From Vibrio echinoideorum (GTDB lineage: Bacteria > Pseudomonadota > Gammaproteobacteria > Enterobacterales > Vibrionaceae), in assembly GCF_024347455.1 (NCBI RefSeq), contig NZ_AP025483.1, positions 2,728,001 through 2,792,000 on the forward strand: DNA of 64,000 bases. The letters run 5' to 3'. The notes beneath the pieces were generated by a model. That model had not been told where the DNA came from, did no database searches, and worked only from the letters and a program-made list of their open reading frames with translations. Shown here piece by piece: positions 3,690-59,451 of the stretch. The position numbers were made by a program, and so were the translations under genes. Numbering within the stretch: position 1 is the first letter of the stretch; each line of letters begins with the position of its first letter.

Positions 3690-4074
3690 CTAATCTGTTG
3701 TATCACTTACGACTAAGTTAAAACCGGTTCCCATCGAATCATCAATCGCCACGACTTGATAGACAACACCGTCAGCTAAAGTTGCCGGCGCAGAATCAAT
3801 CGCTATTGTAGATGGGTCACCTGCTACAGTAATCGTCACGTAGTAACTGCCCGCTGCCACATAAATACCATTCGCATAATCTTTGAACTTCACATCACTG
3901 AGTGCCGGAGTGCTACCAGATATACCCACGTTTTCGGTCAAGTAAATATCAACTGAAGCTGCAATCGGGTGATGCATGGACGGCTTGAAGTTGAGTCGTC
4001 GGTTCATCGTCGTCATCACACCCAACAATTAACAAGCCTGACATCGCTACAACGAGTATTGGTGAATATTTCAT
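3690..4074 (-). pseudogene. DUF4397-type lipoprotein gene broken by a one-base frameshift
   Basis: Reading down from ATG at 4074 gives a lipoprotein signal peptide ending GLLIVGC (Cys19), an acidic linker, then the DUF4397 opening LQAVHASPD, after which the frame hits a stop within five codons. The frame with one base fewer continues directly from the same point as AASVDIYLTENVG and runs to 3690. Deleting one T at about 3963-3964 restores a single protein of about 127 residues. The 112-codon frame with an internal start at 4028 is therefore only the 3' part. DUF4397 proteins are surface or periplasmic beta-rich proteins of unknown function, usually longer than this one. A sequencing error is as likely as a true mutation. 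Confidence 0.8.
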
Positions 4075-5587: not shown

Positions 5588-6481
5588 GTGAACATCACGA
5601 TTGTTGGACCTGGGGCTATCGGCTCTTTGTGGGCGATAAAACTACTTCAAGCTGGTCATAATGTGTCTTTGTGGAGTCGTTCCACTGATAACTCAATAGA
5701 CTTATCACTTGATGGACAAGCTTCACTTTCCTTCAGTAACAACAATATCGAAAAGCTATCAGCGAGTGACTTGGTTATTTTCACGGTCAAAGCTTGGCAA
5801 GTAGAACAAGCCACTACTCCACTACTTCAATATCTCGACTCTGACACCATTCTTATGTTCATGCATAACGGAATGGGCGCGGTCGACAACATCGCCACTC
5901 AAATTGATGCTCATCCAATAGTATTGGCGACCACCACCCAAGCGGCATTCAAACCCAGTCACAACAATGTATCCCACACAGGAATCGGTCAAACACAATT
6001 GGGGGCTTTTAACCTCAAGGGTCAGCAGTGCACTTTTTTAGTTGATGTGTTGGAACATGCCTTGCCTGCCGTGAGTTGGAATCCTGAGATAAAAACAGCG
6101 CTATGGACTAAGCTCGCCATCAATTGTGCCATCAACCCACTGACTGGGCTGGAACAAATCAAAAACGGAGAGCTTGCTGACCAAAGATTTAGCGAAGTTT
6201 TGAGTTCTATAATTAAAGAACTCACGCAAGTGATGCAAGCTGAAAGCATTACTTGTTCATTCGACGAATTAGAGACAAGCGTCAAACAGGTTATCCAAGC
6301 CACGGCAAAGAACAATTCCTCAATGAAGCAAGATATGTTTTACCAACGAAAGACAGAGATAAACTTCATTACCGGACACCTTATAAAGACAGCACTTAAG
6401 CATCAGATAGAGGTTCCCGTTAACCAAAAGCTGTTTGCTCAAGTCAAAGAACGAGAAAATAGCTGGAATCATCAAGATTAG
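5588..6481 (+). CDS. panE: 2-dehydropantoate 2-reductase
   Basis: The 297-residue protein opens with an NADPH-binding Rossmann motif (GPGAIGSLWA, residues 7-16) and keeps the ApbA/PanE architecture: N-terminal nucleotide domain, then a helical C-terminal domain with the KLAINCAINPLTGL segment carrying the catalytic lysine region. It reduces ketopantoate to pantoate in pantothenate and CoA synthesis in the cytosol. The start is GTG at 5588; no better ATG gives a complete Rossmann fold. It is followed at about 90 bp by csdA on the same strand, with no clear terminator between. Confidence 0.9.
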   Translation: MNITIVGPGAIGSLWAIKLLQAGHNVSLWSRSTDNSIDLSLDGQASLSFSNNNIEKLSASDLVIFTVKAWQVEQATTPLLQYLDSDTILMFMHNGMGAVDNIATQIDAHPIVLATTTQAAFKPSHNNVSHTGIGQTQLGAFNLKGQQCTFLVDVLEHALPAVSWNPEIKTALWTKLAINCAINPLTGLEQIKNGELADQRFSEVLSSIIKELTQVMQAESITCSFDELETSVKQVIQATAKNNSSMKQDMFYQRKTEINFITGHLIKTALKHQIEVPVNQKLFAQVKERENSWNHQD

Positions 6482-25068: not shown

Positions 25069-25362
25069 ATGGCTGTTATCGTCAAGTACGTGGTGGAACG
25101 CAACGGAGAAGAGAAAATGACTTTTACCTCTAAAGCCGAAGCTGACGCATACGACAAAATGCTGGATATGGCTGATGAGCTTTTTGAACTGTTAAGCAAA
25201 AGCGATTTAGTTGAAGATGAAGGCAAGCAAGAAGAACTTGCAATGTACCTAGCGAAGAATAAAGAAGAAGTTCTTTACGCATTAGGCGCTAAGCGTAAAC
25301 CAGCTCCGAAAAAAGAAAAGAAACTTGAAGCTGTTGAAAACACAGAAGAAGATGCAGCGTAA
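25069..25362 (+). CDS. yebG: YebG family DNA-damage-inducible protein
   Basis: The 97-residue protein starts MAVIVKYVVERNG and keeps the YebG core (FTSKAEADAYDKMLDMAD), followed by a lysine-rich then acidic C-terminal tail. YebG is a LexA-controlled protein of unclear molecular function induced by DNA damage. An AGAGGA box lies upstream. The SOS-like site at 25024 agrees with that regulation. A hairpin and T-run follow the gene. Confidence 0.92.
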   Translation: MAVIVKYVVERNGEEKMTFTSKAEADAYDKMLDMADELFELLSKSDLVEDEGKQEELAMYLAKNKEEVLYALGAKRKPAPKKEKKLEAVENTEEDAA

Positions 25363-25380
25363 CTAGCTGACACCTTTCTA

Positions 25381-25432
25381 AAAAACGTCAATAACACCTC
25401 TAACCAGAGCCTATTATTGGCGTTTTTTTATA
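25381..25432 (+). terminator. Terminator after yebG
   Basis: AACGTCAATAA and TTATTGGCGTT can pair with one G-U pair around a loop of about 21 bases, followed by a seven-base T-run. Confidence 0.7.
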
Positions 25433-25486
25433 CTTATCGAAATATAATGAAGCCGGTTTATAGTCGAAATCGCTCTAAACATTAGC

Positions 25487-25516
25487 TTGCACGAAAGTGT
25501 GATAAAGATCTAATAT
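25487..25516 (+). promoter_or_regulatory. Candidate promoter for the NifU-like/GGGtGRT operon
   Basis: TTGCAC (25487-25492) and TAATAT (25511-25516) are 18 bp apart. A start near 25523 would place the first transcribed bases directly before the aptamer-like fold at 25526. Confidence 0.5.
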
Positions 25517-25525
25517 ATAGACATC

Positions 25526-25596
25526 AGGTGATGGGGTTCCACCTAAGCTTTTGCTTCAACCGCCCGTTCTTTTCGAACAGTGCTAATGACTCCTAC
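25526..25596 (+). promoter_or_regulatory. Fluoride riboswitch-like aptamer (crcB motif)
   Basis: The arrangement follows the crcB/fluoride aptamer. Stem 1 is AGGTG (25526-25530) with CACCT (25540-25544) around the loop ATGGGGTTC. A small AAGC/GCTT hairpin follows, then CAACCGCCC, then stem 2 formed by GTTC and GAAC, then GCTAATGACTCCTAC (25582-25596). The loop GGGGTT can form the family's pseudoknot with GACTCC (25588-25593). GATGG, AACCGCC and CTAATGACTCCTAC are the conserved elements I recall from Bacillus and Pseudomonas examples. The extra hairpin between stems is unusual. What it senses here is inferred from resemblance only. Confidence 0.72.
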
Positions 25597-25605
25597 AGAA
25601 TCGAA

Positions 25606-25716
25606 AACAGGTAATACTGTTGGACGTATCGCTATTCCTCCATTTTGAAATGGACTTAGTCTACTAAGACCAAGGTTCATGACACCTTTGGATTATCGAT
25701 ACTCAAGATCTGTAGT
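25606..25716 (+). ncRNA. Multi-hairpin junction in the operon leader
   Basis: After the aptamer, AACAG/CTGTT forms a hairpin (25606-25621). GTATCG (25626-25631) pairs with CGATAC (25697-25702), enclosing three hairpins: CCATTT/AAATGG (25640-25653), CTTAG/CTAAG (25655-25668) and CCAAGGT/ACCTTTGG (25670-25691). CTACAGA at the aptamer's 3' end (25593-25599) is complementary to TCTGTAG (25709-25715), so this domain could compete with the aptamer fold. No known RNA family is recognised. Confidence 0.5.
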
Positions 25717-25746
25717 GAATTAGCCACACCTCTTCCAACACGTCCT

Positions 25747-25793
25747 GTTTTCTCAACGCCCTAGGTCTTAAATGACTCTAATAGTGAGAAAAC
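25747..25793 (+). promoter_or_regulatory. Hairpin covering the ribosome binding site of the NifU-like gene
   Basis: GTTTTCTCA (25747-25755) is perfectly complementary over nine bases to TGAGAAAAC (25785-25793), three bases before the ATG at 25797. The GAG ribosome-binding core sits inside the 3' arm, so this stem would block translation unless disrupted. Confidence 0.55.
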
Positions 25794-25796
25794 ATT

Positions 25797-26489
25797 ATGC
25801 ACTACTCTTCAGAAATTCAATCAATGTGCCCTATTCAAAGGGGTGATCTTCACACTTCAGCGCCAATTCCCGTTGAAGGCGCAATGGTTAGCCCAAAAGA
25901 TGTCATCGCTATTTCTGGCTTAAGCCATGGCGTAGGCACTTGTGCACCACAACAAGGTGCAGCAAAATTAACGCTTAACGTAAAAAACGGCATCATCGAA
26001 GAAGCGCTAATCGAAACGATTGGCTGTTCAGGCATGACTCAATCAGCCGCGATGGCAGCCGAAATCCTCACCGGAAGAACCATTCTTGAAGCCCTGAATA
26101 CTGACTTAGTATGTGACGCGATTAACGTAGCGATGCGCGAAATCTTTCTGCAGTTTGTTTACGGCCGTACTCAATCAGCTTTCTCTGAAGGTGGCCTAGA
26201 AATCGGCGCGGCATTAGAAGACCTCGGTCAAACACAACGCAGCCAAGTGGGTACTAGCTACTCAACCTCAGCGAAAGGCGTTCGTTACCTAGAGCTTGCT
26301 GAAGGCTACGTGACCAAACTTGCTCTTGATGATAACCGTGAGGTTATTGGCTACGAGTACCTCAACCTCGGCAAAATGATGACAGCGATTAATCAAGGTG
26401 TCACTGCCAATGAAGCAGCCGATCTTGCTATGGGTACCTATGGTCGCTTCGACGAAGCCGTTACCACTATTAACCCACGCCAACAGTAA
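25797..26489 (+). CDS. NifU/IscU-like iron-sulfur scaffold protein
   Basis: The 230-residue protein resembles the NifU N-terminal (IscU) fold: GTCAPQQGAAKLTLNV around Cys49 and ETIGCSGMTQSAAM around Cys77 line up with the first two cluster-ligand cysteines of IscU. The third ligand cysteine is not in its usual place (Cys106 is in NTDLVCDAI), and a C-terminal part of about 100 residues differs from IscU. It is thus a divergent scaffold, or an Fe-S or metal-binding protein derived from one. It is co-directional with the GGGtGRT gene 24 bp downstream and sits behind a long structured leader. Confidence 0.8.
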   Translation: MHYSSEIQSMCPIQRGDLHTSAPIPVEGAMVSPKDVIAISGLSHGVGTCAPQQGAAKLTLNVKNGIIEEALIETIGCSGMTQSAAMAAEILTGRTILEALNTDLVCDAINVAMREIFLQFVYGRTQSAFSEGGLEIGAALEDLGQTQRSQVGTSYSTSAKGVRYLELAEGYVTKLALDDNREVIGYEYLNLGKMMTAINQGVTANEAADLAMGTYGRFDEAVTTINPRQQ

Positions 26490-26513: not shown

Positions 26514-27503
26514 ATGATGAACACTCAATTTAATGAATCTGTAAGTCGCGTATTGGCAGAAATGAACTTCGACTCTTTAGAGCAAGCGAACCAATACTGT
26601 CTATCACACAATGTAGACCCGAAAGCGTTAGTAATGGATACCCAGCCTATCGCGTTTGAAAGCGCTGCTGATGCGTACACCCTTGGTGCTGCACTAGCTC
26701 TGTTTCGTAAAGCGAGCAACGCTGAACAAGCCGCGAATATCATTGGCGAAGGCCTTCAAGCATTCACCAAACCCGGCAGTGTTGCCGAACAACGTAAAGT
26801 GGGCATTGGCCATGGCGCGCTCGCAGCTCGCCTTCTAAATGAAGGGAGCCACTGCTTTGCTTTTCTTGCTGGTCATGAATCTTTCGCCGCTGCAGAAGGT
26901 GCGATTAAAATTGCACTTAACGTCAACAAATCGCGTCAAACACCACTGAAAGTAATCTTAAATGGCTTGGGTAAAGATGCGGCTTACTTAATCTCTCGTA
27001 TCAATGGTTTTACCTATGTACGCACTCAATACGATTACCAAACGGGTGAGCTTGTTGAAACAGAACGTCGCCGCTTCTCACAAGGCCCTCGCGGAGAGAT
27101 CTTATGCTACGGTGCTGACGACGTACGCGAAGGCGTAGCCATCATGCACAGAGAAGAAGTAGACGTAAGTATTACAGGTAACTCGACTAACCCTACTCGT
27201 TTTCAGCACCCAGTTGCGGGTATCTACAAAGCGGAACGTACTCGTCAAAGTCTACCTTACTTCTCAGTGGCTTCAGGCGGCGGTACTGGCCGAACATTGC
27301 ATCCAGATAACGTGGCAGCAGGCCCTGCGTCTTACGGCATGACTGATACCATGGGCAGAATGCACGCTGACGCTCAGTTCGCAGGTAGCTCTTCCGTTCC
27401 AGCACACGTCGCAATGATGGGCTTTATAGGTATGGGTAACAACCCAATGGTCGGTGCGACTGTGGCACTAGCGGTTGCCGTTAGCGAATCTCAAAACGCC
27501 TAA
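26514..27503 (+). CDS. GGGtGRT-family protein
   Basis: The 329-residue protein carries SGGGTGRTLHPDN (GGGTGRT at residues 255-261), the signature after which I recall this family being named. Other striking segments are GIGHGALAARLL near residue 97, ILNGLGKDAAYLISRINGF near 148-166, and a small-residue-rich C-terminus (MMGFIGMGNNPMVGATVALAVAVS). The family is paired with NifU-like scaffolds and has no biochemical role that I know. An AGGAAAGAT box precedes ATGATG at 26514. It forms an operon with the gene before it. Confidence 0.8.
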   Translation: MMNTQFNESVSRVLAEMNFDSLEQANQYCLSHNVDPKALVMDTQPIAFESAADAYTLGAALALFRKASNAEQAANIIGEGLQAFTKPGSVAEQRKVGIGHGALAARLLNEGSHCFAFLAGHESFAAAEGAIKIALNVNKSRQTPLKVILNGLGKDAAYLISRINGFTYVRTQYDYQTGELVETERRRFSQGPRGEILCYGADDVREGVAIMHREEVDVSITGNSTNPTRFQHPVAGIYKAERTRQSLPYFSVASGGGTGRTLHPDNVAAGPASYGMTDTMGRMHADAQFAGSSSVPAHVAMMGFIGMGNNPMVGATVALAVAVSESQNA

Positions 27504-59084: not shown

Positions 59085-59451
59085 GGGGCTGATTTAGGAT
59101 TCGACAGGAATTTTGAAGTCTGAGGTGCATGCCGTGGGGCGGTTGGCCACGTTAAAAGCCGCAAAAAAATAGTCGCAAACGACGAAAACTACGCACTAGC
59201 AGCTTAATAACCTGCTCAGAGCTCTCTTACCCTAGCTTCCGCTCGTAAGACGGGGACCAATAAGAGATCAAACCCAAACTAGCTAGCGCGGATTCTCCCA
59301 CCTGAGAGGAAAAGCGCGAATAACAATTCAGGTTAGCCTTTAACTAGCGTGTCGGTTCGCAGGTTGCTGGTGAAATTAAAGATCGACTAAGCATGTAGTA
59401 CCAATGATGAATGATTTTTGGACGCGGGTTCAACTCCCGCCAGCTCCACCA
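59085..59451 (+). ncRNA. ssrA: Transfer-messenger RNA (tmRNA)
   Basis: GGGGCTGATTTAGGATTCGAC at the 5' end and GCTCCACCA at the 3' end form the tRNA-Ala-like acceptor, with GGTTCAACTCCCGCC as T arm. The tag frame begins at 59175 and encodes ANDENYALAA followed by tandem stop codons at 59205-59207 and nearby. The intervening pseudoknots are consistent with length. It frees stalled ribosomes with SmpB. The 3' end is a common integration site, but no integrase or duplicated end is seen here. Confidence 0.97.

Follow-up and report, generated by a model that had tools for sequence, protein, structure and literature searches.

The leader of a NifU-like gene in Vibrio echinoideorum raises two questions: why a fluoride riboswitch should stand before a poorly understood pair of genes, and how its aptamer could control a ribosome site that lies ~180 bases away. 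Fluoride riboswitches are described mainly as acting on termination in the available parts of three papers, where the genes linked to them comprise exporters, antiporters, MutS/DNA repair, enolase and pyrophosphatase as well as haloacid-dehalogenase-type proteins and formate hydrogen lyase, and where the NifU-like/GGGtGRT pair does not appear among these genes (PMC2864571; PMC7266159; PMC11139923). Among the papers searched, none joined a fluoride riboswitch with NifU or GGGtGRT with fluoride. Our analysis covers a stretch of 64,000 nucleotides, referred to as the window, whose positions are used as coordinates throughout, together with related genomes of the same genus, the same family and more distant bacteria.

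Results

A fluoride aptamer in front of a NifU-like/GGGtGRT gene pair

A covariance model search placed a fluoride riboswitch aptamer (RF01734) at 25518-25602 of the forward strand, where it scored 48.8 bits, above the gathering score of 34, with the full length of the model aligned (positions 1-64 of 64). This agrees with a first-pass annotation made from the letters of the window, which had read a crcB-like aptamer at this place and had proposed the covariance model as a check. The 5' leader carries a known aptamer class and, judged from this match, is predicted to bind fluoride. The aptamer is the single RF01734 match in the whole 5.7-Mb genome. The CrcB gene lies ~2.7 Mb from the aptamer on the same contig and the one ClC-family match is located on another contig; since one fluoride riboswitch was found in the genome, neither its CrcB nor its ClC gene is under one. 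The window also contains a tmRNA (59085-59451; 256.7 bits), which is ordinary.

Upstream of the aptamer the forward strand displays a promoter-like pair, TTGCAC (25487-25492) and TAATAT (25511-25516), separated by an 18-base spacer, whose putative function is read from its letters. The earlier claim of a promoter at this position held in that the pair is present and falls in a conserved block, but the pair is absent from the list produced by a promoter consensus scan. The block (25494-25512, forward strand) is operator-like in the window promoter (AAAGTGTGATAAAGATCTA) and recurs in related leaders. Of 97 same-genus leaders, 68 contain the dyad-like AAAGTGTGATnnAGATCTA with no more than three mismatches; it begins 22 to 25 bases ahead of the Rfam start, so that its spacing from the aptamer hardly varies. 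Among the remaining 29 leaders, 8 have a reverse-oriented half-site, GATCACACTTT, with at most two mismatches, in this position. A dyad-like block is likewise seen at this place in one locus (L177) and its relatives. The nearly fixed position of the conserved block relative to the aptamer makes it plausible that transcription starts directly at the aptamer. The block resembles a CRP site, placed where the promoter would be blocked.

The leader is followed on the same strand by genes for a NifU/IscU-like protein of 230 aa (25797-26489; PF01592) and a GGGtGRT protein of 329 aa (26514-27503; PF14057). The NifU-like protein reaches PF01592 (NifU_N) marginally, with 22.1 bits against a cut-off of 22, is weakly similar to NifU/IscU chains of known structure (E 0.00024 for the best of them, with residues 34-109 aligning with one solved NifU), and misses the NCBIfam IscU/NifU equivalog cut-offs by far (22.6 of 192.4 and 27.9 of 187.9). 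Three of its cysteines, C49, C77 and C106, do not vary among 39 sequences and are candidates for the three cluster-binding cysteines of IscU/NifU scaffolds; the spacing of the third, C106, differs from that in IscU. The nearest named relative among the matches listed, from Vibrio splendidus, is 98% identical. The GGGtGRT protein matches PF14057 with 555.4 bits against a cut-off of 27 over residues 8-325; a sequence search up to E 10 matched no PDB chain, and its structure model has a Rossmann-like second half and no telling structural match. The NifU-like gene is followed by GGGtGRT in 79 of 80 loci, and the remaining locus is cut off by the end of its contig.

RF01734 scored over the cut-off in 114 of 227 same-genus genomes, and a match to the NifU-like protein was found in 100 of the 227, including copies counted as present though in pieces (G026, G082, G086, G191 and G215). 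A comparison of coordinates showed that in 99 of these 100 genomes the aptamer immediately precedes the gene on its own strand, the exception being G215, in which a broken gene relic lies beside a sub-threshold RF01734 match (23.6 bits). Similarly, the aptamer is upstream in 39 of the 40 genomes of other same-family genera that have the NifU-like protein, and it is present at all 15 gamma-proteobacterial loci (4 Shewanella and 1 Motilimonas among them) within the named loci, which are the best 80 among the matches listed. The linkage of riboswitch and gene pair is not chance. Rfam was scanned at 57 of the 65 distant loci (those left out being L098, L100, L101, L103, L105, L106, L110 and L111; L089 has no DNA upstream of the gene), and the aptamer stood directly upstream in two of the 57, one in a Clostridiales bin (L070), the other in Anaerotignum neopropionicum (L091). 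With the unscanned distant loci and L089 counted as without riboswitch, a tree of 81 NifU-like proteins requires three changes of the riboswitch label, at least two of them forced by well-supported branches, and the link between fluoride riboswitch and gene pair thus probably arose more than once. The Clostridiales bin carries two successive fluoride riboswitches (3806-3864 and 5937-6008 of that locus), one before NifU-like/GGGtGRT and the other before a frame that is MutS-like by eye.

Competing helices and their covariation

For the pairing tests 142 leaders were collected, namely that of the window, 96 of the same genus, 40 of the same family and 5 drawn from the 15 named gamma-proteobacterial loci; G082, G086 and G215 match the NifU-like protein and are outside this set. 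The aptamer was found by pattern in 132 of the 142, and the ten others, nine of which carry RF01734 and one of which (L266) does not, stand outside the pairing tests. The 132 leaders were thinned to 62, and a separate set of 45 was thinned from 106 leaders with a near-consensus aptamer. Covariation was assessed on a structure-blind alignment of these 45 non-redundant leaders against 500 shuffles, which ignore relatedness.

The anti-aptamer strand GATCTGTAG (25707-25715) pairs with the 3' strand of the aptamer (25593-25602). The complementarity CTACAGA/TCTGTAG that had been noticed before (25593-25599/25709-25715) is present, and with two further pairs it constitutes a helix in which 93.8% of 401 cells are paired, with 38 compensatory cells compared to 12.0 in shuffles, none of the 500 shuffles reaching either that share or this number. 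The ribosome-site strand TGAGAAAACA (25785-25794), which includes a Shine-Dalgarno-like GAG (25786-25788), pairs with 25746-25755 in a stem that had been described with nine base pairs; the stem is present and co-varies (92.9% of 450 cells paired and 25 compensatory cells, compared to 11.5 in shuffles, with none of the 500 shuffles reaching either value), but it is one pair longer. Directly after the aptamer lies a further strand, S1 (GAAAACAGG, 25603-25611), which is complementary to CCTGTTTTC (25744-25752), within the strand that buries the ribosome site. This blocking, or anti-ribosome-site, strand (CCTGTTTTCTCA, 25744-25755) is therefore common to two competing helices, pairing either with S1 or with 25785-25794. 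In the S1 helix 97.3% of 405 cells are paired, with 6 compensatory cells against 1.1 and again no shuffle of the 500 reaching them. The number of pair types is a weaker sign: out of 500 shuffles, 1 equalled it for the anti-aptamer helix, 11 for the S1 helix and 119 for the ribosome-site helix. When the partner was shifted by 1 to 3 bases, pairing fell to 30-64%.

These results agree with the first-pass annotation in the aptamer, anti-aptamer pairing and ribosome-site stem layered before the NifU-like/GGGtGRT genes, and in the expected covariation of stems across orthologous leaders, since compensatory cells exceed the shuffles for the anti-aptamer, the ribosome-site and the junction stem described below. 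The connector at 25603-25611, however, had been missed, and the layers remained unconnected because freeing the anti-aptamer would leave the ribosome-site stem unaffected.

In 46 of the 62 leaders S1 paired downstream at least as well as the top 5% of 200 dinucleotide shuffles, and in 49 the anti-aptamer did so. By a stated pattern, 18 of the 62 have another S1 sequence type, and in this group the mark is reached by S1 in 14 leaders and by the anti-aptamer in 10. Pairing is kept with other letters in GCAACAG/CTGTTGC, in CAACAGTA/TACTGTTG and, with one mismatch, in GCAATGAATGG/CCATTCTTTGC, and in another genus the usual S1 core is extended by new letters into a 15-pair run around CAGTTGCGTGC/GCACGCAACTG. 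When partners were swapped among 17 leaders, the cognate partner was the best in 9 and within the best two in 12; had the partners been alike, ~1 best cognate would be expected.

Three further elements of the forward strand accompany these helices. A small local hairpin, AACAG/CTGTT (25606-25621), is predicted to fold up S1 in the OFF state; 84.9% of its 219 cells are paired in the 45 leaders, with zero compensatory changes. An inner strand, TGTTGGA (25618-25624), is predicted to pair over a long range with 25734-25740 in the ON fold; this helix is lineage-specific, pairing amounting to 98.6% of 279 cells in 40 close leaders but to 56.6% of 302 cells across the wide set, where 78 of 500 shuffles reach it. 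Finally, the region 25626-25702 is closed by GTATCG/CGATAC (25626-25631/25697-25702), a junction stem that had been claimed earlier and is indeed present: in the 40 close leaders 99.2% of 240 cells are paired, without covariation, and across the wide set the paired share is 56.2% of 219 cells, with 55 compensatory cells against 29.2. In place of the three internal hairpins that had been drawn inside this junction, the predicted fold has one long imperfect hairpin, which looks like a spacer of free length.

Among the 115 over-cut-off RF01734 loci in the genus, 16 are not located before a NifU-like gene, and all 16 were inspected along with four weaker matches. A ClC-type gene, called by Pfam for two loci and by the visibly same protein start for the others, follows in 13 of the 16 (L279-L283 and L287-L294), and the 13 genomes concerned all belong to the 19 that lack a CrcB match. 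The S1 measure is passed by 5 of the 13 ClC-type leaders, and some of them show the same three-strand logic in other letters, e.g., GGATAGAT/ATCTATCC/AGGTAGAT. The remaining three loci are each of their own kind. The second riboswitch of G084 (L286) has a NifU-type leader followed by a 96-residue frame resembling the NifU-like N-terminus and then by crcB, the only crcB noticed behind a fluoride riboswitch among the loci inspected in the genus. In G030 a well-preserved NifU-type fluoride leader (L285) stands in a genome in which the protein was not found, as a fossil leader, and in G102 the gene downstream of a 38.8-bit fluoride riboswitch match (L284) was assigned to no class.

Predicted folding with and without the aptamer

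The 293-base leader folds at z = -3.53 relative to its own shuffles, and the whole window leader is predicted to adopt the OFF fold (-76.5 kcal/mol), in which the anti-aptamer and ribosome-site stems are both formed. As a stand-in for a fluoride-locked aptamer, the aptamer was removed before folding, and the leader without it, taken to 25820, was predicted to have S1 paired with the blocking strand, leaving the ribosome site open. The finished leader is nearly balanced in this model (-51.8 for the S1 helix and -51.6 for the ribosome-site helix), and the ribosome-site helix wins when the bound-model transcript stops exactly at 25796, which implies that timing must decide. In bound-model transcripts ending at 25755, 25770 and 25784, all short of the ribosome site, the S1 helix alone forms. 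When the free-state model of the window leader was stopped at 25770 or 25784, the S1 helix was favoured over the anti-aptamer, so that the OFF state would also depend on folding order.

Across the 62 leaders, transcripts ending before the ribosome site gave a probability above 0.5 for the pairing of S1 with the blocking strand in 49 cases with the aptamer out, 22 with the aptamer in and 10 with S1 shuffled. The window leader presents a weak contrast in the same test (0.69, 0.53 and 0.58, respectively), and of the 18 leaders with another S1 type, 8 pass the 0.5 mark with the aptamer out and 2 with it in. At equilibrium, the opening of the ribosome site in 61 leaders (L249 being left out of this computation) gained more than 0.1 in 19 and fell by more than 0.1 in 4, with a mean of +0.104 compared to +0.002 when S1 was shuffled (Wilcoxon p = 4e-5). 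Within these models the effect of the aptamer on equilibrium opening appears real but modest, and in the window leader the opening changes by just 0.05. Since equilibrium opening is seen in only 19 of the 61 leaders, a model of control by S1 needs co-transcriptional trapping.

Discussion

Taken together, we consider it likely that the leader is a fluoride riboswitch which controls translation by an exchange between three strands. Without fluoride, the aptamer 3' strand (25593-25602) would pair with the anti-aptamer strand (25707-25715), and S1 (25603-25611) would be locked inside the anti-aptamer stem, partly in its own small hairpin, so that the blocking strand (25744-25755) would be free to bury the ribosome site (25785-25794) and keep the leader OFF. 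With fluoride, the folded aptamer would retain its 3' strand and exclude the anti-aptamer stem, S1 would take the blocking strand during the synthesis of the latter, before a ribosome site exists, and the site would then emerge unpaired, turning translation of the NifU-like scaffold and the GGGtGRT protein ON.

This exchange has to be weighed against a simpler, two-stem riboswitch, in which the anti-aptamer and ribosome-site stems act and S1 owes its complementarity to its resemblance to the ribosome-site strand. Against such a reading stand the covariation of the S1 pairing beyond shuffles and the success of S1 in 14 of the 18 leaders that have other S1 sequences; moreover, without S1 the aptamer and the ribosome site have no connection. 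We therefore regard two stems as an unlikely explanation, although in most leaders the finished ribosome site remains largely closed at equilibrium, the core GAAAACA is common to S1 and the ribosome-site strand in the main group, and shuffling of S1 barely reduces the computed pairing in the window leader. A second input besides fluoride, acting through the variable hairpin (25626-25702) or an upstream operator, might be read from the conserved place of a hairpin whose sequence varies and from the conserved CRP-like operator in the promoter. The length and sequence of the hairpin, however, differ much between species, as expected of a spacer and not of a second aptamer, and no second Rfam match over the cut-off was found at the hairpin, making this alternative quite unlikely.

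Control of transcription, in which the anti-aptamer hairpin or the loading of Rho on the untranslated leader would halt transcription in the absence of fluoride, appears very improbable to us. Although the leader is long and untranslated, and predicted terminators often overlap crcB motifs according to the available part of one source (PMC2864571), the element conserved here is a ribosome-site hairpin, and a search restricted to loops of 3-8 bases, which would miss long-loop terminators, listed no terminator-like site at 25300-26000 on either strand. Rho could still add to translational control at this leader. The three-strand exchange that we prefer could explain, by its covarying design, the control of an aptamer over a distant ribosome site, and it predicts which changes would lock the leader on or off.

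Genes under a riboswitch have repeatedly proved to serve the biology of its ligand. A poorly understood and widespread gene pair thus gains a strong functional clue from its place behind a fluoride riboswitch in 99 genomes of the genus, while the genome's own CrcB fluoride channel, unlike the pair, is not behind one. In the accessible part of an iron-dependent stimulon table for Bacteroides thetaiotaomicron, the GGGtGRT and NifU genes have values from -12.8 to -11 (PMC10434189), and the GGGtGRT protein of Clostridium pasteurianum is listed in the available part of an iron comparison (PMC5395762), both of which fit an iron-linked role for the pair. We infer that the pair most likely serves a function which depends on iron or iron-sulphur and is required under fluoride stress. 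It is possible that the pair is a dedicated fluoride-stress system and that, at the same time, the three-strand exchange is general to fluoride riboswitches of Vibrionaceae and Shewanella, with letters re-invented lineage by lineage, and partly shared with the leaders of ClC-type exporters; we advance this combined reading tentatively and lean slightly against it. If the pair is such a dedicated system, it might rebuild or supply an iron-dependent centre poisoned by fluoride, the supply or repair of such a centre being our guess at the connection between iron and fluoride.

Compared with known systems, the NifU-like protein is longer than the IscU/NifU Fe-S scaffolds, and the GGGtGRT protein shows no difference from the PF14057 family. 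The RF01734 members treated in the available parts of earlier papers act on terminators or precede crcB, eriC or other genes (PMC2864571; PMC7266159; PMC11139923). In Pseudomonas syringae and Burkholderia pseudomallei, fluoride riboswitches are named as translational controls and represent, like the leader predicted here, a fluoride aptamer without termination, but the available text of that source, unlike our model with S1, makes no mention of a third strand (PMC13273304). The present leader is distinguished from the RF01734 members above by a predicted translational three-strand platform before NifU-like/GGGtGRT. Its aptamer class is known, and so is the third-strand principle, from the thiM TPP riboswitch of E. 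coli, in which a third (anti-anti-Shine-Dalgarno) strand within the aptamer region can take the anti-ribosome-site strand and the ligand switches translation off. In the fluoride leader, by comparison, S1 is located just after the aptamer, and the ligand is predicted to switch translation on.
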